A stretch of 64,000 nucleotides of DNA, taken from NCBI GenBank assembly GCA_002839855.1, contig PGYV01000004.1:389988-453987 (forward strand), in the 5' to 3' direction. Numbering within the stretch: position 1 is the first letter of the stretch; the number at the start of each line of letters is the position of its first letter. Under the pieces are notes generated by a model. The model was given only the letters and a program-made list of their open reading frames with translations, searched no databases and had not been told where the DNA came from. Shown here piece after piece: positions 7,191 to 15,101 of this stretch. This stretch comes from Candidatus Goldiibacteriota bacterium HGW-Goldbacteria-1. Its GTDB lineage: Bacteria; Oederibacteriota; PGYV01. Position numbers and translations under genes: made by a program.

Positions 7191-7662
7191 TCAACGGGAG
7201 AATTATACAAACCCGAGGGACGGTGAAACAGATGCTTGGATGCTTGGATGTTTGGAGGCTTGGCTTATAAACCAGAGGGACGGAGGGTCGGATGCACGGA
7301 GGGACAGAAGTAAAATCAGACATTCAGACCTGCAAATCAACTGCCGCGGGCTGCCATCTCCGCCATAGCATTTTTTTTGCTGCGACGGCCGGGAAAGACC
7401 CGCGTCTACCATGACAAAAAAATCTAAAACACGCGCCCTAAAGGGACGCGGCTACCACTACATAGACCAAAAACACATAGGATCAGAGTCTATTCCGTCT
7501 TCTTACGCTCGCATGCCCGCTTCAACCGGATCTTACCAATCCTCCAAGCATCTAACCTTCTAAGCATCCGTCCTTATAACCTTCCAAACATCCAAGCGTC
7601 TAAGCATCCAACCTTCCAAACGTGCTATAATAAATTTATTATTACAAACGAGAGGAAACCTT
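7191..7662. repeat. Intergenic repeat field
   Basis: About 470 bases with no credible gene; short open frames here are low-complexity artefacts. It contains GGATGCTTGGATG/GGAGGCTTGG words (7226-7265), GGGACGGAGGG words (7265-7305), a CCGCGGGCT...AGACCCGCGTCTACCA palindrome interrupted by ~50 bases (7338-7412), a CGCGCCCTAAAGGGACGCG palindrome with a CTACCA tail (7431-7456), and inverted CCAAGCATCTAACCTTC words (7530-7620). An extended -10 (TGCTATAAT, 7623-7631) precedes the next plus-strand gene. Confidence 0.65.
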
Positions 7663-8319
7663 ATGCCTTCGAAATGGCTTACAGATAATGGCTCTAAAAT
7701 CACACTTGTAGTATCCGGCAGAAATAATATTTTTCTTGTGGAATCACAGGGTACCACCCTTCTTGTGGATGCCGGTATGGGTTATATGTACGACAACCTG
7801 CTGCTGAAAATAAAAAAGACCGGCGCTGAGCCTTCTATAATCGTTTTAACCCACGCGCATTACGACCACGTGGAAAACACTTCAAGACTTAAAGCGCATT
7901 TTAATGCCAAAGTACTTATTCACCGCGCCGAAACAGAACACTTAAAAGCCGGGGTAAACCCGGAAGACAAACCGGTTAAAGGAAAATTTACGATAGAGGG
8001 TGAAAATTATCCTCCTGTAATACCCGATATTATTGTTGATGAGCTATATAACGCAGGGGGCGGAATTACCATTATACATACGCCCGGCCATACTCCCGGT
8101 TCAATAAGCATACTGGTTGATGATGAAATAGCCGCCGTCGGCGACGCGATGTTTAACGTGTATCCCGGGCAGGCAATGGTACCGTATGTCATGGACAGGC
8201 GCGTGCTGATAAAAAGCTGGAAAAAACTACTGGATACAAACTGCAGGCTTTTTTTGCCGTCTCACGGCAGGGCAATTACAAGACAGACAGTGGAAAAGGT
8301 TTATAAAAAGTATACTTAA
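7663..8319 (+). CDS. Metallo-beta-lactamase-fold hydrolase
   Basis: 218 residues. The metal-binding THAHYDH motif (HxHxDH) is near residues 64-70, followed by HTPGHTPGS near 144-152, a downstream Asp in GDAMFNVYPG and a final SHGR His. Together these give the full two-metal site of the glyoxalase II/MBL superfamily. The substrate cannot be read from the sequence; thioester or organophosphate hydrolases share this layout. A GAGAGGA ribosome binding site and an extended -10 box precede it, so it is probably monocistronic. Confidence 0.9.
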   Translation: MPSKWLTDNGSKITLVVSGRNNIFLVESQGTTLLVDAGMGYMYDNLLLKIKKTGAEPSIIVLTHAHYDHVENTSRLKAHFNAKVLIHRAETEHLKAGVNPEDKPVKGKFTIEGENYPPVIPDIIVDELYNAGGGITIIHTPGHTPGSISILVDDEIAAVGDAMFNVYPGQAMVPYVMDRRVLIKSWKKLLDTNCRLFLPSHGRAITRQTVEKVYKKYT

Positions 8320-8358
8320 ATCAGAATTGCTTCTTTGAAGTATAATATTTTATACTCC

Positions 8359-8376
8359 GGTATAATTAATTATACC
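8359..8376. terminator. Perfect palindrome between convergent genes
   Basis: GGTATAATT is followed directly by its reverse complement, and at about 8338-8356 lies a second hairpin AGTATAA-TATT-TTATACT. Both are AT-rich and sit between the stop of the MBL hydrolase (8319) and the stop of the convergent membrane-protein gene (8398). A role in ending transcription from both sides is likely but neither has a classical GC-rich stem. Confidence 0.4.
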
Positions 8377-8397
8377 CTGACATCTGCCGGTTAAAAT

Positions 8398-8925
8398 TTA
8401 TTCCCCCGCGAAAAGGCCCACAAGCGCCAGAAGAAAGAATATCCCGCCCAGTATTAAAACTGTTATCTGTCCGCCGGAAAGATTTGTTTTTAAAACAAGT
8501 TCCGGCTGTTCTTTTTTCCAGTAATCATTAAGCGTTTCCTGTACTATTGTCAAAGGCGCAATGGAAAAAAACGTTAATAACCAGTAAGGGTCAGGCAGCC
8601 TCCACAGCGCTGTCAGCACAATATACTGAACAAGCATCCATCCCGGTAAAAACAGTTTTTCAATGCCGGAATTTTCCGCGTGCCCCCTGATATCATCAAA
8701 CTGCCTGTAAGTAAGTATAAGCCCCCAAATAGGAACAAAAAGCCCTGCTGTCCTCCAGCCCGGTTTTATATCAAGATTATGATGGGCTTTTAACTGTTTC
8801 CAGTTTTTATAAAACCAGAAGATCTGATATATCCCGAACGTGGCAATTGACAGCGCTACCATGTGCCATAAAGGTATTGCATTGGAATACTGCAGCTTTT
8901 CCTGTTTTAATACCTGCTGTTCCAT
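8398..8925 (-). CDS. Small multi-pass membrane protein, DUF4234-like
   Basis: 175 residues with about four hydrophobic segments. The first, SIATFGIYQIFWFYKNWKQL, resembles the GIYxxxWxYK pattern of DUF4234 proteins. The tail (GGQITVLILGGIFFLLALVG) is a final membrane helix. Function unknown. It starts 14 bases after the stop of the HTH gene at 8940 and may be co-transcribed with it. Confidence 0.7.
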   Translation of the reverse strand: MEQQVLKQEKLQYSNAIPLWHMVALSIATFGIYQIFWFYKNWKQLKAHHNLDIKPGWRTAGLFVPIWGLILTYRQFDDIRGHAENSGIEKLFLPGWMLVQYIVLTALWRLPDPYWLLTFFSIAPLTIVQETLNDYWKKEQPELVLKTNLSGGQITVLILGGIFFLLALVGLFAGE

Positions 8926-8939
8926 TTTTAACCCCCGGA

Positions 8940-9254
8940 TTAAACTATAGATATCTTTATCTTTTTTCCCATTCCATTCGCAATTTTATTAAGCAATCCA
9001 ATAGTTATATTCTGCCCGCCTTTTTCAACCCGTGATATTTCCTGCTGTTTGACACCCGCTTTTTCCGCAAGCTGTTTTTGTGTGTAATGCTTTTTACCCC
9101 TAAGTTCCTTTATTTCCTCCGCCACCATATAAGACAGCCTTTCTTCTTCATACGCTTCCCTGTATTCAGGACTTTTCTGATGTTCTTTTTTGCGTTTTTC
9201 ATAAATTTTACCGTCGGTATAAACACCTGCTTTTTTTGTTTTCATTTTTTTCAC
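8940..9254 (-). CDS. XRE/HigA-type helix-turn-helix regulator
   Basis: 104 residues. The N-terminal half is Lys/Glu-rich (YEKRKKEHQKSPEYREAYEE); the C-terminal half is a Cro/C1-type HTH (YTQKQLAEKAGVKQQEISRV, then GLLNKIANGMGKKI). This layout matches HigA-type antitoxins and short transcriptional regulators. No toxin of RelE/HigB type is visible next to it; the downstream gene encodes a membrane protein. A sigma70-like promoter with an embedded palindrome lies at 9288-9316 and suggests self-repression. Confidence 0.85.
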   Translation of the reverse strand: MKKMKTKKAGVYTDGKIYEKRKKEHQKSPEYREAYEEERLSYMVAEEIKELRGKKHYTQKQLAEKAGVKQQEISRVEKGGQNITIGLLNKIANGMGKKIKISIV

Positions 9255-9287
9255 CCTGTTTGATTCTCTTCTCTATACTTATAAATA

Positions 9288-9316
9288 AACATACAAGAAA
9301 TAACTTGTATTGTCAA
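9288..9316 (-). promoter_or_regulatory. Promoter with palindromic operator for the HTH gene
   Basis: On the minus strand TTGACA (9316-9311) and TATGTT (9293-9288) are separated by exactly 17 bases, a near-consensus sigma70 promoter. The spacer holds a palindrome with arms ATACAAG and CTTGTAT and a 6-base centre (9291-9310). An operator filling the spacer is the classical arrangement for an autoregulated HTH repressor. Confidence 0.7.
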
Positions 9317-9337
9317 CCCGGGTATACCGTTGAAAAC

Positions 9338-9420
9338 AGAGGCTTAGATGCTTGGATGTTTAGATGTAAAAAAACAACCATTTATTACAAAACCCGCGGG
9401 CTAAAGACCCGCGTCTACCA
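9338..9420. repeat. Intergenic repeat words and palindrome
   Basis: 9338-9368 has GGCTTAGATGCTTGGATG words. 9395-9412 is the palindrome CGCGGGCTAAAGACCCGCG followed by TCTACCA, a further copy of the palindrome family seen at 7.4, 15.0 and 19.9 kb. Confidence 0.65.
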
Positions 9421-9442
9421 AATCTAAATTACTATATAGTTA

Positions 9443-9526
9443 TTATTTCACAATTACCAGCTTTTTAAGTTTCCCGTTTTCTGTCTTTCCGCTTTCAACA
9501 ATCACAAACCGCGTAAACCATATGCC
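9443..9526 (-). pseudogene. Remnant of the C-terminal sorting domain of an exported protein
   Basis: The last 27 codons plus stop of an exported protein survive here without the rest of the gene. Reading the minus strand gives GIWFTRFVIVESGKTENGKL and then KKLVIVK-stop, which differs from the C-terminus of the Thr-rich protein at 12842-13594 at only two residues. Upstream of codon 27 the similarity ends in unrelated sequence. It is a truncated paralogue, left by recombination or deletion. Confidence 0.85.
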
Positions 9527-9545
9527 GAGTGCAAACACACAAAAT

Positions 9546-10532
9546 TTATTTCTGAGGCCGTACGCATTTTTTAAACAGGTCAAAACACGGACACCTGTTA
9601 TATTTTTCATATATCATCATACACGGACAGTTGGAAAACAACCCCCATATATTAAACAATATTATCACAAAATAAAACCATTTAGCATGCGGAAAAAACA
9701 GCGAAATCATATATGTAATTAATATAATAACAGATTTGTTAATATACGAAAATCCAACCTTTGGAGTTTTCATAAGCAGTCCCGTAAACACATGCGCTGC
9801 TATTATTATCCCAATTCTTACAGGCGTCATCTCTCCGTAAATCACAAGCGTTATAAAAAGAGCTATTAACGCAAACCTTAAAACCATACTGAACCATCCT
9901 TCAAATTTAGGCACTAATTGTTTAACAGAAGCGGAATGGATGGCAAAACCTGTCGGATCTGCTTCTTTAAGCAGTTTGTCTTCCGCGTTTGCCCTTGCTA
10001 TCATCATAGGCGTGTAAATGAATAATATAAGAATCAATGCTGCATAATTAAGAAACATTATACTGCTGCCTATAAGCCATAATATAATTGAACTGTACAT
10101 CGGATGGCGCACTATGGAATAAGGCCCTGCGGTAATAATTTTATGCCCTTCCTGTATTTCTATCATATTTGACCAGTATTTCCCCAGTGTGGACTTGGAC
10201 CATACATGTATAAAACATCCGGCAGCTGATAGTATCAATCCATAGGAAGCTGCGGCAACACGGGCTGTCAGATCAGTTTCCAATACCCCGATATCAGCCT
10301 GTAAAATATTAAAAATAATTACTATTACGGCAGCCATTGAAAAAGTCTCCACCGGGTGGGGCTTGTTCTCTTTCTCCTTATACGGCTTAGCCCCATATTC
10401 AATAAATTTATAAACCACAGATATTAATATTATCAATGCTGTCAGCCATATCCAAATCAGGTTATATATATATAATTCATTGGATTTATTAATAATATCT
10501 TTTATTATGTCAGTGTATAATTGCAGGTTCAT
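9546..10532 (-). CDS. Membrane methyltransferase-like protein (ICMT/PEMT family)
   Basis: 328 residues with about eight hydrophobic segments. The segment ITAGPYSIVRHPMYSS (near residues 131-146) is the signature of isoprenylcysteine carboxyl methyltransferase/phospholipid N-methyltransferase-like enzymes, which bind SAM at the membrane face. The C-terminus is Cys-rich (FSNCPCMMIYEKYNRCPC). The gene overlaps the upstream Lgt-like gene by 23 bases and is the last of the radical SAM/Lgt-like/ICMT-like run, so its substrate is plausibly a lipid or lipid-linked group. Substrate not determinable from sequence. Confidence 0.8.
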   Translation of the reverse strand: MNLQLYTDIIKDIINKSNELYIYNLIWIWLTALIILISVVYKFIEYGAKPYKEKENKPHPVETFSMAAVIVIIFNILQADIGVLETDLTARVAAASYGLILSAAGCFIHVWSKSTLGKYWSNMIEIQEGHKIITAGPYSIVRHPMYSSIILWLIGSSIMFLNYAALILILFIYTPMMIARANAEDKLLKEADPTGFAIHSASVKQLVPKFEGWFSMVLRFALIALFITLVIYGEMTPVRIGIIIAAHVFTGLLMKTPKVGFSYINKSVIILITYMISLFFPHAKWFYFVIILFNIWGLFSNCPCMMIYEKYNRCPCFDLFKKCVRPQK

Positions 10533-11202
10533 TTATTCTCCTTTTTATCATCAAAATTAAAAACGGCAGTATAAGTACGGCAATAACCTGATACACGGTA
10601 AATCCAAATAAAACTCTGGGTTCTATCCTTATAAATTCAATTAAAAAACGGAAAACCGAATATGCGGCAAGATATACTAAAAAATGCAGGCCTTTAAATT
10701 TACCTGTTTTATATAAATAAAAAAAGACTATACCGCACATAAACTGAAAAACGCTCTCATAAATCTGTGCAGGATGCACATAACTACCGGCATAGTTTTT
10801 TGTTCTGATAAAAAAATCTGTTTCAGTACCGCCGCAGCAGCCGTATATAGAACACCCTATTTTCCCCAGCCCCGCGGAAACACACAACGGCACTACAAAC
10901 CTGTCACCAAACGCGCCATTGATTTTCTTAACCATTTTATAAATATTGGATGCAATTAACGCTCCTACAAGCGCTCCAAAATAACTTTTACCCGTTAAAA
11001 TATATTCTTCACGGAAGCCATAAGACAAAAACACCGGCAATTTTGCTCCGATTATAGCGCCAAGTATCATAAAAGGCAGCACCGTTGTTTTTATATCCTG
11101 CTGCCCTTCACGGCGCATCACTTTCAGTAGAATTACCGCTGCTATAAGGCTTATAAAAGAAAAAAGAGTGTAATATAAAGGACCGGCATTTTCCGGATGC
11201 AT
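10510..11202 (-). CDS. Lgt-like membrane protein (divergent prolipoprotein diacylglyceryl transferase family)
   Basis: 230 residues, about seven membrane helices. The GLGKIGCSIYGCCGG segment aligns with the Lgt signature GRxGNFxNxE, and VHPAQIYES matches the conserved HPxQLYE of Lgt. However the Arg, Asn and Glu of the signature are Lys, Cys and Cys here, and the HGG motif of Lgt is replaced by SYFGALVG. Lgt moves diacylglycerol from phosphatidylglycerol to a lipobox Cys; this relative lacks several of those residues and probably handles a different lipid reaction. Its start shares one base with the radical SAM stop (TAATG). Confidence 0.8.
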   Translation of the reverse strand: MHPENAGPLYYTLFSFISLIAAVILLKVMRREGQQDIKTTVLPFMILGAIIGAKLPVFLSYGFREEYILTGKSYFGALVGALIASNIYKMVKKINGAFGDRFVVPLCVSAGLGKIGCSIYGCCGGTETDFFIRTKNYAGSYVHPAQIYESVFQFMCGIVFFYLYKTGKFKGLHFLVYLAAYSVFRFLIEFIRIEPRVLFGFTVYQVIAVLILPFLILMIKRRINEPAIIH

Positions 11203-12530
11203 TATTCAGCCCTTTTATTGAATACATTGTTAACACAGAAAGGTATAATTTTGCCTTTGCCTGTAGATACACCCACACAGCATTTTTCAGCCCTTTCAGT
11301 GTCAAAAGTATGGGCGTCCATAAAGTTCTTAACAATAATTCTTATCATTTTCATATCTCCGTTATTTGAACTGTTTCCATCTGTGAACTCTTTAAGTTTT
11401 TTTAACGGGGTAAGGTTATCTACAATCTGTGAACAGCACCCTCCTGAATTGCACGTGATTTGTTCTTTAAGGTATTTAAGAGCCCCGGAATCAAAACCTA
11501 TTTTATCTTTTATGGCTCCCTGATGTTTGGCAAAATCAATATATTTTGCCAAAGAATATGATTTTTTCCCGTCAACAAACAGAAATGAAATTGAAGTGCA
11601 GTTTTCATGTGAACAAGGCAACGGCACTATGTGATTATATTTAAGATAACCGGTTTTATCCATGGCAACCAGTATATCTTCCTGAAGCAAAGGTTTTTGT
11701 TTCAACCCTTTAGCCCACCCTGTACCTGTAAGCCTTTGAAATGTTATTCCGGTAATATTTTTTGTTTCTATAGCCAGTTCCAGTATTCTTCCTATTTCAC
11801 CAAGATTTCCGCGGGTTACGGTTACCGCAAGGCACATTTTAATACCGTCATTATTAAGTTTATTAATTAATGTAAGTTTCTTTTCAAGAAGAGAAGCTCC
11901 CCTAAGTTCAATTTCGGCTGTTGTGTCAAAACCGTCAAACTGAAGATAGATTTCAACTTTATCTTTAAGATCCCTGATTTTATTACAATTATCACTTTCC
12001 CCAAGAAGCGCAAGCCCGTTTGTATTTATTAACACGCGGTTAATATTCCTTGAAGCTGCATGTTCAAGAAAAGATACAAAATTCGTGTGAAGAGTCGGCT
12101 CCCCCCCGGAAATCTGCAGCACATCAAGGCTGTCATTTTCGGTTCGCATTATTACGTCAAGGCGCTTTTTAAATTCTTCAAAGGATATGTCGCCCGTATT
12201 TTTATCACCATAATAACAGACAGGGCACTTTAAATTGCATTTTCCGGTAATCTCTATCAAAGCTGTGCATAGGTGCTGCTTGTGTTTATCGCACCATCCG
12301 CAGTCATCCGGGCAGCCTTTGAAACTTTTAGTCTGTCTTTCATATACTGCTTTGCCGGATGAAGTAAAGGTTTTATCAAAAAAACGTTTTGCATCCCTGC
12401 TTATTAGCGTTTTAATTTTTCCGTGTTCCGGACATTCACGTACAAGAAAAACATCATTACCTTCTGTAATTTTTTCTGCCGGCAGTATTTTAAGGCAATG
12501 CGGACAGCATGATACTGTGTTTTTTACCAT
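11202..12530 (-). CDS. Radical SAM enzyme of the Tes/MJ0619-like type
   Basis: 442 residues. N-terminal zinc-like motifs CPHC (residues ~9-12) and CPEHG precede GCPDDCGWCDKHKQHLC, then the radical SAM cluster motif CNLKCPVC and the SAM-contact motif QISGGEPT. The order CPxC, CPEHG, GCPxxCGxCxxH, CNLxCPVC, SGGEPT, IYLQFDG, LRG is that of the archaeal MJ0619 family, which includes tetraether lipid synthase (joins lipid tails by C-C bonds). Further Cys lie in the C-terminal third (CSHENC, CNSGGCC), possibly for auxiliary clusters. Coupled downstream to Lgt-like and ICMT-like membrane proteins, which supports a lipid substrate. Exact reaction inferred only. Confidence 0.85.
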   Translation of the reverse strand: MVKNTVSCCPHCLKILPAEKITEGNDVFLVRECPEHGKIKTLISRDAKRFFDKTFTSSGKAVYERQTKSFKGCPDDCGWCDKHKQHLCTALIEITGKCNLKCPVCYYGDKNTGDISFEEFKKRLDVIMRTENDSLDVLQISGGEPTLHTNFVSFLEHAASRNINRVLINTNGLALLGESDNCNKIRDLKDKVEIYLQFDGFDTTAEIELRGASLLEKKLTLINKLNNDGIKMCLAVTVTRGNLGEIGRILELAIETKNITGITFQRLTGTGWAKGLKQKPLLQEDILVAMDKTGYLKYNHIVPLPCSHENCTSISFLFVDGKKSYSLAKYIDFAKHQGAIKDKIGFDSGALKYLKEQITCNSGGCCSQIVDNLTPLKKLKEFTDGNSSNNGDMKMIRIIVKNFMDAHTFDTERAEKCCVGVSTGKGKIIPFCVNNVFNKRAE

Positions 12531-12569
12531 CAGTCACGGCTGCCTTTTTTGGGATTCATAATATCTATC

Positions 12570-12806
12570 CTATTTGGGGTTATTTTTTTTGCTGAGTCTT
12601 ATAATATATTTTATTATGAAATAACCGCCGGCTCCCAGAATCAGACCTATCGGCACAAACATCCACATAGGAGTATACTCGCCTCCCGCTAAACCAATCA
12701 ATACAAAACAACCGGAAGATAAAACAAGCACAATTGCTATAATATATATAAATACTACTCCTATGCCGTATAGGATTTTACTTATTAAATTTTTTTCATC
12801 TCCCAT
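12570..12806 (-). CDS. Small two-helix membrane protein
   Basis: 78 residues. Two hydrophobic segments (IGVVFIYIIAIVLVLSSGCF and WMFVPIGLILGAGGYFII) are separated by a short Gly-rich loop, with a basic tail. No family recognised. It precedes the Tes-like radical SAM gene by 39 bases on the same strand and could be the first gene of that cassette. GGAGG lies at a good distance upstream of the ATG. Confidence 0.65.
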   Translation of the reverse strand: MGDEKNLISKILYGIGVVFIYIIAIVLVLSSGCFVLIGLAGGEYTPMWMFVPIGLILGAGGYFIIKYIIRLSKKNNPK

Positions 12807-12841
12807 ATAAACCCTCCAATTAGAAATTAACTTTAATATTA

Positions 12842-13594
12842 TTATTTAACAATTACCAGCTTTCTTAACTTTCCGTTTTCTGTCTTTCCGCTTTCAACAG
12901 TCACAAACCGCGTAAACCATATTCCGGGGGCAAGGTTGGGCGCGGTAAACGTGACCCGCTGTTCGCCGGAGTTTACGTCTTTTGTTTCTTCTTTTACTTT
13001 TCTTCCGTCAGCGGAATATATCTGAAGCGTGACTTTGGCGGTATTGGTGAATTTAAACAGCGCGTAGATAGGAGCGTTGTTTGACGCGGGATTAGGGTAT
13101 ATCTTCCCGTTTAAAATTTCAAAATTATAGCCTTCTACTGCCGGTGTTAAAAATGGCGTAGCAGTTATTGTGATTGTGGGGGTAACAGTCGGTGTAAAAG
13201 GCACGGGAGTTAATGTTACTGTGCCTGTAATAGTTTTGGTTGCGGTAACAGTGATTGTCCGCGTGTTTGTCGGTGTTATGGTTGATGTTGTTGTCATTGT
13301 TGAAGTCTCTGTTACGGTCATTGTCAACTCTTCCGTGTCTGTCATTGTCGCGGTTGCCGTCGAGGTTTCAGTAACCGTTTCAGTCACGGTTTCAGTTGCT
13401 GTCTCAGTCGCAGTTTCAGTCACAGTTTCTGTTGCTGTCTCTGTTGTAGTCTGTGTAACCGTGTCTGTTACGGTTTCTGTTGCCGTCTCTGTAGAAGTCT
13501 CTGTGACTGTGGGTGTTTCCGTGTCGGTAATGGCATACGCGAAAGCCGAGCAGGCAAAGATAAGTATTGTTATAAACAGTATTTTTTTCATCAT
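12842..13594 (-). CDS. Exported protein made of a Thr/Val/Glu repeat linker and a C-terminal sorting-like domain
   Basis: 250 residues. Residues 1-21 are a signal peptide (SAFAYA). Residues about 22-155 are almost only Thr, Val, Glu, Ala and Pro in TETVTDTVT/TATETVTE steps; the underlying DNA is a short tandem repeat. Residues about 160-250 form a domain beginning KIYPNPAS and ending GKLRKLVIVK, resembling type IX secretion-type C-terminal domains (YPNP start, Gly-x-W-F, final KLVIVK). No catalytic domain is present, so it is a stalk or spacer protein. It overlaps the upstream PorV-like gene by 4 bases. A remnant of a paralogue lies at 9443-9526. Confidence 0.85.
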   Translation of the reverse strand: MMKKILFITILIFACSAFAYAITDTETPTVTETSTETATETVTDTVTQTTTETATETVTETATETATETVTETVTETSTATATMTDTEELTMTVTETSTMTTTSTITPTNTRTITVTATKTITGTVTLTPVPFTPTVTPTITITATPFLTPAVEGYNFEILNGKIYPNPASNNAPIYALFKFTNTAKVTLQIYSADGRKVKEETKDVNSGEQRVTFTAPNLAPGIWFTRFVTVESGKTENGKLRKLVIVK

Positions 13595-14808
13595 TTCACC
13601 AGTTTCAGCCAGTACTTAAGCACTTCATTATCAGGCGAATAAAACAGCGCCTTTTCAAAATACTGCGCGGAATTTCTGTTATCGCGCAGGTTGTAATAAC
13701 ACAGCCCCATCCTCTGATAAAATGACGATTTTTCATTGTCTTTCATTGAATCCAGGTCTTTCCAGTACAGCACGTTTATACGCTCGTAAAACTTTACCGC
13801 CTGCGAATATTTTTTCGCGCGGAAATAATAATCCCCGCTTTTCATGTATTCCGTAAAGTTCTGCGCGGGCTCGCGTATTGCTTTGGTCTCCCCGCCTTCT
13901 TCTTTTTTATCTTCCGCGCCGAAAGATACGGCATTAATACCTATCCTGTGAGTATCACCAAGCACAGCGCCGGGAGAGTACGAATAATCCAATGACATAT
14001 CATTGTATTTTATTCCAAGCCCGGCGGAAAAATTTAATTGTGCATCGCCGTTAATTGACGCCCCTGCCCTTAAACTTAACATTTCAAGAGGCTTAAATTC
14101 CATGCCAAGCTGCCCTTCAAAATAATTTTCGTTTTTCAGATAATAAACGCCTGTCATTATATCAAGAAGCTCTTTTTCATTATCCCTGATTTTCCACGCA
14201 AACGCACACCTTGCCGCAAGCGGCAACAGCGCGCCTTCTTCATTTTTGCCGATATTGCTTATACTTATGCCAAGCCTGCCGTTTAAAATATCACTGTATG
14301 TGATGCCGATATCGGCAGCGCCGAAAGCGGATTCTTTTCCAATTTTTTCAAAGACGCCTTTAATAGCAGCGCCTATCCCTAAATTTCCGGTTTTTTTAGC
14401 GTATGCAATTGTAAAAACATCAGAACTTAATTCAAGGACATCCCCGGTAATAACAGGCCTTCCAAATTGGTCGGCTTCAAGCGCTTCCAGTGAGCCAAAA
14501 TTATACCCCTGATACTGCGCAGCGATTACCCCAAAATCAAATAACATTGCCCCTGTAAGCATTCTTCCGCTTATACCAAGCGGCATAAGCGCTTGTGAAG
14601 CGGAAACTTCCACTGCAGTTAAACCTGACGCGCACGCGGGATTTATATTCAGCGCGGATGATGAATTAAGCGCGGCAGAAGCGCCGCTGCCCAGCGCCGC
14701 CTGGCGCGGGCTTAAACCCGTTAACAGGTATGCGGCTCTTGACACATCCGCATACACCGCGGACGATATAATAACTGTAAGTGTGAATAGAATGATGGTT
14801 TTTTTCAT
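13591..14808 (-). CDS. PorV/PorQ-like (UPF0164-like) outer-membrane protein with TPR tail
   Basis: 405 residues from the ATG at 14808, chosen because it gives a normal signal peptide (MKKTIILFTLTVIISSAVYA); a longer frame begins at 14838. The mature start (GLSPRQAALGSGASAALNSS, then NPACASGLTAVEVSAS) follows the pattern of PorV/UPF0164 barrels, where surface proteins with C-terminal sorting domains dock in type IX systems. Barrel-like strands run to about residue 300; the last ~80 residues are a TPR (GDYYFRAKKYSQAVKFYERI; ENALFYSPDNEVL-like). It is coupled by a 4-base overlap to the Thr-rich sorting-domain protein, a likely client. Confidence 0.85.
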   Translation of the reverse strand: MKKTIILFTLTVIISSAVYADVSRAAYLLTGLSPRQAALGSGASAALNSSSALNINPACASGLTAVEVSASQALMPLGISGRMLTGAMLFDFGVIAAQYQGYNFGSLEALEADQFGRPVITGDVLELSSDVFTIAYAKKTGNLGIGAAIKGVFEKIGKESAFGAADIGITYSDILNGRLGISISNIGKNEEGALLPLAARCAFAWKIRDNEKELLDIMTGVYYLKNENYFEGQLGMEFKPLEMLSLRAGASINGDAQLNFSAGLGIKYNDMSLDYSYSPGAVLGDTHRIGINAVSFGAEDKKEEGGETKAIREPAQNFTEYMKSGDYYFRAKKYSQAVKFYERINVLYWKDLDSMKDNEKSSFYQRMGLCYYNLRDNRNSAQYFEKALFYSPDNEVLKYWLKLVK

Positions 14809-14838
14809 AATCAGAATGATAACATATTTTAAGGACAA

Positions 14839-15101
14839 ATACGAGAGACTGCAGCTGGGCGGCTAGGCAGCTTGGCAGCTCGGTTAAGACCTGGTTAAAG
14901 CGAGCCGCAATATATTGCGGCTCTACAATTAAATACTTACTACAACTGCCGCGGGATAACACCGCGCAGAACCTATAATATGCGCGGGCTAAAGACCCGC
15001 ATCTACCACTACTAAAACAAAATCAACAACCGCGCCCTAAAGGGACGCGCCTACCAGATCTAAACCAAGCTGCCAAGCTGCCTAGCCGCCCAGCTGCCGC
15101 T
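14839..15101. repeat. Intergenic palindrome cluster
   Basis: Holds an inverted pair of GGCGGCTAGGCAGCTTGGCAGC (14857-14880) and its complement (15068-15090) flanking: a 22-base perfect palindrome GAGCCGCAATA plus reverse complement (14902-14923), a GCGCGGGCTAAAGACCCGC palindrome with CTACCA tail (14981-15009), and CGCGCCCTAAAGGGACGCG with CTACCA tail (15031-15057). No gene seen. Confidence 0.7.

Follow-up and report, generated by a model that had tools for sequence, protein, structure and literature searches.

The window, meaning the whole 64,000-nt stretch of Candidatus Goldiibacteriota bacterium HGW-Goldbacteria-1 DNA that was analyzed, carries a tight operon on the minus strand. A radical SAM (rSAM) gene with an intact open reading frame (11202..12530, 442 aa), an Lgt-like gene (10510..11202, 230 aa; Pfam LGT, 93.4 bits), and an ICMT-like gene (9546..10532, 328 aa; Pfam ICMT, 56.7 bits, and PEMT, 45.5 bits) are all open, and all three products score above the Pfam gathering score. 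These three genes had been described in an earlier sequence-only reading, and the TAATG common to the rSAM and Lgt-like genes and the 23-base overlap of the Lgt-like and ICMT-like genes (10510-10532) were both confirmed. A gene for a 78-aa membrane protein (12570..12806, minus strand), preceded by TTGGAGG, was overlooked in that reading and belongs to the operon as its fourth member; position 12806, where the interval then considered ended, is its start codon. This small protein is the proposed acceptor, a putative mini-lipoprotein, and the codon of its proposed lipidation site, Cys33 in an SSGC motif read from the sequence, lies at 12708..12710 (minus strand). A promoter scan of the locus gave chance-level results.

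The four genes form a 3.4-kb insertion flanked by 109-bp direct repeats. The left copy (9426..9534) is a duplicate of the 3' end of a gene with a T9SS sorting tail, and the right copy (12825..12933) is the 3' end of the gene at 12842-13594; the two are 109 nt long, 85% identical, and the only such pair in the window, and the block between them is exactly the four genes. The empty site is present in two same-genus genomes, and in the same-genus genome G001, window positions 9428 and 12835 are joined. A search of two genomes of the same genus and eleven of the same order did not find the trio of rSAM, Lgt-like, and ICMT-like genes. The sequence-only reading had held that a trio not conserved in close relatives would speak against a single pathway; the trio is literally absent from them, but the unit is not refuted, because the absence reflects insertion of the cassette. 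The module is widespread and mobile, and the window has a single copy of it.

The rSAM protein matched Zn_ribbon_HMPTM (60 bits) and Radical_SAM (49.8 bits) in Pfam and has a rubredoxin site (C9, C12, C33, and H36), an N-terminal auxiliary cluster (C73, C77, C80, and H83), the radical SAM motif CNLKCPVC, and the C-terminal cluster cysteines. The top Foldseek PDB match of its AF2 model (pLDDT 87) was 7TOL (E 3.8e-34, TM 0.83), and the next best folds were the peptide maturases SkfB and SuiB. The domain order is that of Tes/GDGT-MAS (MJ0619, 7TOL/7TOM), with the rubredoxin, N-cluster, and radical-SAM cysteine positions shared and, in the window clade, the C-cluster positions also matched; the ligands and the fold thus bear out the Tes-family motif order and architecture proposed earlier. 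An acting role on a pterin, as in the old MJ0619 annotation, or on another soluble metabolite, with the neighboring genes incidental, is highly improbable: the Pfam zinc-ribbon name HMPTM comes from that annotation, but the pterin role was not reproducible, the structure binds lipids (PMC9433317), and the neighbors are conserved across phyla. An anti-phage defense role was considered and rejected, as the only matches to pVip were weak and to the shared rSAM core.

Placement in a Tes/COG1964 tree, as suggested in the earlier reading, upheld the Tes-family architecture but put the enzyme outside the Tes clade in both trees, and outside that of TrsS. It sits in a third clade there; the branch joining all 54 non-Tes, non-TrsS rows had a support of 99, and TrsS formed a separate clade (support 99), but a grouping of the window clade with Tes was not rejected at 0.05 in the AU test (p 0.09). 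The Tes model NF045702 gave 205 bits and missed the cut-off of 450, whereas a true Tes in genome G058 scores 548 bits; the TrsS model NF045646, the best-scoring family model over the full length, gave 263 bits and missed the cut-off of 490. Unlike TrsS, the window rSAM has no selenocysteine, and the TrsS loci examined were without an Lgt-like or small-protein neighbor. In comparison with Tes, the gene setting is always different, with an Lgt-like gene and a small Cys protein.

The rubredoxin, N-terminal [4Fe-4S], and radical-SAM CX3CX2C ligands are all kept in the window rSAM and its clade. The C-terminal [4Fe-4S] cluster carries the Tes coupling intermediate, and Met439 and Tyr459 are strictly conserved in archaeal Tes (PMC9433317). 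The three cysteines of this cluster are retained in the window clade and changed to A, S, and E/D in most Lgt-linked relatives, so that the shared chemistry cannot depend on that cluster; Met439 is replaced by Lys and Tyr459 by Val in the window, and both Tes residues are missing from its clade. These residues bear on a reading in which free membrane lipids are the product, with the rSAM enzyme coupling or methylating the tails, the Lgt-like protein shuttling diacylglycerol, the ICMT-like protein methylating the head group, and the small protein serving only as a lipid-presenting helper. Such a reading is rather unlikely. The enzyme has the fold and cofactor sites of GDGT-MAS, its clade retains the three C-terminal cysteines, the GDGT-MAS variants M439A and Y459F/L are still active (PMC9433317), and bacterial Tes homologues have been proposed as makers of branched tetraethers (PMC8941075). 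Against it stand the tree position outside the Tes clade, the loss of the cluster in most Lgt-linked relatives, and the Cys-bearing small protein, which it leaves unexplained. A further point against it is Thermotoga maritima, which belongs to an order that makes diabolic-acid lipids but had no Tes or TrsS model match at the thresholds used; the known bacterial route (Mss) therefore seems to rely on another rSAM. The cross-linked or methylated membrane lipids suggested by the sequence-only reading, and lipid cross-linking by the module in general, are thus possible but not best supported, given the third clade, the missing Met439 and Tyr459, and the loss of the C-cluster cysteines in most Lgt-linked relatives.

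Membership of the Lgt-like protein in the Lgt family rests on sequence profiles: hhalign aligned it to Escherichia coli Lgt over the length (99%, E 3.4e-18), and a Foldseek search with its model gave no usable match, E. coli Lgt not being returned although 5azb exists. The NCBIfam Lgt equivalogs scored 72.4 and 43.7 bits, and their cut-offs of 334 and 118.9 were missed by a wide margin. PF01790, HPxxxYE, and equivalents of R143, R239, Y235, E243, and R246 are common to canonical Lgt and the Lgt-like protein, but the latter is a paralogue in which H103 and N146 are replaced and whose gene is in an operon with an rSAM gene; the host genome also encodes a separate canonical Lgt (209 bits). In Lgt, R143 and R239 keep the donor in place, and the role proposed for H103 is binding of the lipobox peptide (PMC4728403, PMC13251419). 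The donor site of the window protein has Lys at R143, a conservative change, and Arg185 at R239; Phe stands at H103 of the acceptor-binding HGGL motif, where Tyr or Trp would also count as canonical, and Cys at N146. Across the Lgt-like family, R143 (as R/K), R239, and R246 (as R/K) were kept in 88/88 members and Y235 in 87/88, and H103 was retained in 0/88, with V/M/L/T in nearly all. Many canonical Lgts have Tyr at this position (PMC13251419), as was also seen in the residue table made here, so loss of H103 alone is weak evidence. The same two changes as in most Lgt-like family members are found in Mycobacterium smegmatis MSMEG_5408 (Y26H, N146C), which is presumed to have low activity (PMC13251419).

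The ICMT-like protein (PDB match 4a2n, E 2.2e-13) shares PF04140 and the SAM-binding RHPxY core with isoprenylcysteine carboxyl methyltransferases but has an extra C-terminal membrane domain, which ends in NCPCM-x-YEKY-x-CPC, conserved in an alignment of 8 orthologues. The NF040696 equivalog was missed (83.7 bits; cut-off 160), and the assignment is at the Pfam family level only. The possibility that this extension corresponds to the DUF4395 protein found in the second ICMT subclade was rejected (hhalign probability 2.5%); DUF4395 was found by Pfam in loci L080 and L101, not in the window. An ICMT-like gene is present in 12 of the fetched rSAM loci (the window, L046, L048, L049, L050, L052, L053, L055, L080, L095, L101, and L104) and, outside these 12, at L179. 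It is an accessory of two subclades; the small membrane protein, passed over earlier, is the conserved partner.

The rSAM and Lgt-like pair was found in 73 of the 83 loci, which had been fetched by rSAM sequence alone, with the Lgt-like gene mostly directly upstream and overlapping; the arrangement is therefore not due to chance. In the third clade, the Lgt-like gene adjoins the rSAM gene in 92/122 leaves, an arrangement seen in none of the Tes or TrsS leaves, and of 9 genomes in which no Lgt-like gene is adjacent, 6 have a second, Lgt-like LGT match elsewhere. The module of rSAM, Lgt-like, and small Cys proteins occurs in at least a dozen phyla. A search for the same gene set in other bacteria thus recovered the pair in distant lineages, with the ICMT-like gene in a minority, and the view that the genes are one functional unit with lipid handling as the shared theme holds, given this conservation and the insertion as an exact four-gene block. 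Conservation of the module is solid, and a search of 5.39 million open papers gave no description of it. A contig profile search with the single window protein gave no match; the contig search relied on an alignment with two plasmid relatives, and the Persicobacter genes were read from ORFs since the record is unannotated.

The small protein of the window has about three TM segments, and Cys33 lies where TM1 ends on the outer side (K..K-ILYGIGVVFIYIIAIVLVLSSGC-F). It had no Pfam or PHROG family, only sub-threshold matches such as DUF4064 and YrvL. Small membrane ORFs accompany the rSAM gene in 64/82 loci, compared with 21/418 (5%) for other genes. A small 2-3-TM protein follows the rSAM gene in 57/77 Lgt-linked loci, 1/12 Tes loci, 0/16 TrsS loci, and 0/15 Chloroflexota relatives without Lgt, which indicates that it tracks the Lgt-like gene and not rSAM as such; about a quarter of the Lgt-linked loci had no small ORF by the filter used. 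In the second ICMT subclade (L080, L095, L101, and L104), it comes after the Lgt-like gene and has GSC/GAC. Since no shared sequence family is detectable, common descent was inferred from position and topology. A Cys is present in 57/57 small proteins, usually no more than 15 residues from the C-terminus, with G/A/S at -2 in 52/57, and a TM-end Cys equivalent to Cys33 was identified in 71/76. The net charge is +2.8 on the inner side and +0.1 after the Cys, in that order in 64/71. The consensus is [GAS]-x-C, with G-x-C in most relatives, and not a strict lipobox; [LVI][ASTVI][GAS]C is missed in the window, where SSGC has Ser at -3. Flavobacterium small proteins are under purifying selection (closest pairs, dS 0.45-0.53 and dN 0.06-0.07).

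Tandem copies of the small protein occur in at least 8 loci, and in L048, it is fused in frame to the rSAM C-terminus. Small, fast-evolving, tandem ORFs beside an rSAM gene resemble rSAM precursor peptides and, with this fusion and the SkfB and SuiB folds, would fit a RiPP-like system in which the rSAM modifies the polypeptide (thioether, epimer, or C-C cross-link), leaving the lipid untouched, and the Lgt-like protein lipidates it. This is improbable, as no core peptide is conserved apart from a single Cys, the nearest relative is an enzyme of lipids with alkyl chains in its pocket, and the Cys is predicted on the opposite side from the cytosolic rSAM. The same fusion, and the translational coupling of the small ORF to the rSAM stop in many loci, would also suit a membrane anchor or assembly subunit keeping a soluble rSAM near the Lgt-like protein, the true substrate being encoded elsewhere. 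That role is likewise unlikely: the duplication in tandem, the extreme divergence, and a single invariant Cys whose place in the topology is fixed suit a modified substrate better, and the Tes and TrsS relatives mostly or wholly lack the small protein yet would need an anchor too.

For the chemistry, we infer, with a probability of roughly 45%, that the Cys of the small protein is the acceptor of the Lgt-like enzyme and that the rSAM tailors the attached lipid. The small protein would be the substrate: a positively charged cytosolic loop leads into its helix and the Cys lies at the outer end, an arrangement that mimics the topology of a lipoprotein signal peptide; on this likeness, the Lgt-like enzyme is predicted to move diacylglycerol from phosphatidylglycerol to the Cys thiol on the outer side of the inner membrane. 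The donor site of this enzyme is intact, but its acceptor site has diverged. Before or after attachment, the cytosolic, membrane-associated rSAM would take hydrogen from an inert lipid carbon and then tailor or couple the lipid tail, and the ICMT, where present, may methylate the product, on either a carboxyl or a head group. This would yield a small lipoprotein that is embedded in the membrane and bears an unusual lipid; in the window protein, more predicted helices come after the Cys, which makes processing as an ordinary lipoprotein unlikely. MYXO-CTERM proteins of Myxococcota, handled by myxosortase, likewise carry an invariant Cys close to a C-terminal helix, on the outer side of the membrane, and have a predicted Lgt-like lipidation (PMC11980579), but their Cys precedes the helix, whereas it follows the helix here, and they are surface proteins with a sortase and without rSAM. 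More tentatively, the module may represent a new class of post-translational modification, in which Lgt-like and rSAM enzymes build a mini-lipoprotein with a radically altered or coupled acyl tail, possibly joined across the bilayer with another lipid as a membrane-spanning anchor, and in which ICMT lineages then methylate it, as a bacterial counterpart of CaaX lipidation-methylation.

Hundreds of bacterial Tes homologues are counted as possible branched-tetraether synthases, which is relevant to palaeothermometry. A large clade of these homologues is set apart here by its link to a tiny Cys protein and a paralogue of Lgt, so it may be wrong to count its members as lipid synthases. A probable substrate, a protein of 7-15 kDa, is named, which makes the role of bacterial Tes homologues and non-canonical Lgt paralogues testable. 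The module points to an undescribed way to attach or tailor lipids on a small membrane protein and, if the lipid is tailored by the radical enzyme, would provide a new lipid anchor.

The radical SAM (rSAM; 11202-12530), Lgt-like (10510-11202) and ICMT-like (9546-10532) genes, all on the minus strand, were found where the sequence-only reading had placed them, and their claimed overlaps were borne out by reading the window sequence. Pfam models scored above gathering thresholds for Zn_ribbon_HMPTM and Radical_SAM in the rSAM protein, LGT in the Lgt-like protein and ICMT/PEMT in the ICMT-like protein. At position 12806, taken in that reading as the end of the trio, a fourth gene begins on the same strand (12570-12806; 78 codons, good ribosome-binding site); it ends 39 nt before the rSAM gene and encodes a small membrane protein, whose copy here reads KNLISKILYGIGVVFIYIIAIVLVLSSGC-FVLIG. 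The cassette is flanked by 109-bp direct repeats (9426-9534 and 12825-12933, 85% identical), in each of which the 3' end of one T9SS sorting-tail gene is repeated. In G001, a genome of the same genus, the site is empty, with 7511-9428 joined straight to 12835-14849 and a PorV neighbour 95% identical to that of the window; the segment was also missing from G002 (same genus), and no full-length relative was found in any of the 13 other genomes searched from the host's genus or order, G001 and G002 included. The four genes therefore entered the host genome together as a block, which supports the cassette being one unit. Its G+C content is 36.8% versus 41.9% for the window (5 of 122 equal-sized stretches were equally low). 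The host genome has two more LGT-family members elsewhere: one is a canonical Lgt (209 bits), the other a weak paralogue. The T9SS sorting-tail protein at 12842-13594, whose 3' end is duplicated beyond the far side of the cassette, has a long Thr-Glu-rich repeat with a 149-codon antisense ORF (13170-13619). The host T9SS-like set seems expanded, since the PorV-family protein at 13591-14838 has 13 matches within the genome.

The rSAM protein matched the archaeal tetraether synthase (Tes) GDGT-MAS (PDB 7TOL) by sequence (E 2e-49) and by Foldseek of an AF2 model (pLDDT 87; E 3.8e-34, TM 0.83), with other folds at about 0.4 or lower by query length. NCBIfam scores were below cut-off for both TrsS (263 bits; cut-off 490) and Tes (205 bits; cut-off 450). 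A scan using an alignment of three rSAM relatives gave 80 loci, a set in which genomes closely related to one another are over-represented owing to sampling by similarity, and in which the taxon given for a MAG may be in error. Ten, at 48-53% identity, belong to Elusimicrobia, Kiritimatiellae, two rumen MAGs without classification and some MAGs labelled Alphaproteobacteria; the remainder, at 29-35%, were from Bacteroidota, Bacillota, Chloroflexota, Planctomycetota, Acidobacteriota, one cyanobacterium, Omnitrophota, Armatimonadota, Patescibacteria, Chlorobiota and one Woesearchaeota MAG, with Actinomycetota added by Mycobacterium branderi (L041). Trees extended with loci of TrsS and Tes that the two family models picked out in three phyla resolved three clades: Tes (support 100), TrsS (99) and a third containing the window rSAM (99). 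Joining the window clade to Tes cost 27.5 log units (p 0.09), which is not a formal rejection. A bona fide Tes (L010 in genome G058; 548 bits, above cut-off) was found in a genome reported to belong to the same domain as the host, in a phylum represented by one genome, making its owner a candidate bacterial tetraether maker. Many Acidobacteriota genomes have an additional long Tes-related protein (600-860 aa frames, e.g., G212:C1:2241431-2242855; model positions 13-431, about 180-210 bits), outside the tree sample. The TrsS genes L171, L172 and L173 each have one in-frame TGA, as expected for the selenoprotein form.

An Lgt-like gene was present in 73 of 83 loci, directly upstream of the rSAM gene in most, with contig ends concealing part of the neighbouring genes; by clade, it accompanied 92 of 122 third-clade leaves and none of the Tes and TrsS leaves. 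Six of nine genomes checked that lack the adjacent gene carry a second Lgt-like gene elsewhere. Within the third clade, the genes around the rSAM come in two arrangements or more, because a Chloroflexota subgroup (15 leaves) and M. vanbaalenii L040 lack the Lgt-like gene, a soluble-type methyltransferase gene following the rSAM gene in L040. Third-clade loci without this neighbour include L225-L239 and L244 (Chloroflexota) and L040 (Mycolicibacterium plasmid). In E. coli Lgt, the donor PG is held in place by R143 and R239, and the lipobox peptide is the assigned partner of H103 (PMC4728403, PMC13251419). Across 88 aligned Lgt-like proteins, R143 (R/K), R239 (R), Y235 and R246 (R/K) are kept, H103 is replaced by V/M/L/T/F and N146 by C (in 82), a pattern that would be expected of a diacylglyceryl transferase with a different acceptor.

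A candidate acceptor is the small protein, for which no fitting family was found in Pfam or PHROGs. An ORF with two to three TM helices, called simply by hydropathy, starts -60 to +250 nt from the rSAM stop in 64 of 82 loci versus 21 of 418 other genes at the same loci (Lgt-linked, 57/77; TrsS, 0/16; Chloroflexota without Lgt, 0/15; Tes, 1/12). dN well below dS supports its coding status. All 57 Lgt-linked proteins contain Cys, 52 with G/A/S at -2, and the Cys lies at a hydrophobic-helix end in 71 of 76 collected proteins. Mean net charge of the helix flanks is +2.8 (inner) and +0.1 (outer), so the positive-inside rule predicts an outward-facing Cys, on the side of Lgt activity. The genes occur in tandem at some loci, follow the Lgt-like gene in L080, L095, L101 and L104, and in an Elusimicrobiaceae MAG (L048:4612-6114) a Pro-rich linker joins the protein, in frame, to the rSAM C-terminus.

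The ligands of the rubredoxin site, the N-terminal cluster and the radical-SAM site are kept nearly everywhere among the aligned rSAM relatives. Position 456, beside C455, is always Cys in the third clade, and Tes proteins have an aliphatic residue there. In GDGT-MAS, it is the C-terminal cluster that bears the carbon-sulfur intermediate; the variants M439A and Y459F/L are still active (PMC9433317). The cysteines of this cluster are retained in the window clade, where Lys replaces Met439 and Val replaces Tyr459, so the window enzyme may be capable of C-C coupling. In most members from Bacteroidota and Bacillota, these cysteines are replaced by Ala, Ser and Glu/Asp; judged from these residues, coupling by the same means cannot be the chemistry common to the whole third clade.

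The ICMT-like gene is limited to two subclades of the third clade. In the window subclade, the protein has a membrane extension at its C-terminus, and all 8 copies carry NCPCM-x-YEKY-x-CPC there; this motif, which closes the extension (9549-9700 of the window, and likewise in the ICMT genes of L046-L055), may bind metal or have a redox role at the membrane. In the other subclade, a separate DUF4395 protein follows ICMT in L080 and L101. No description of the module was found among openly available papers, the part of the literature that was searched. The analysis establishes the module, its conservation, its insertion in the host genome and, from hydropathy and charge, the topology of the small protein. 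In the proposed mechanism, the Lgt-like protein would lipidate the small-protein Cys, the rSAM enzyme would tailor the lipid and the ICMT-like protein would methylate.
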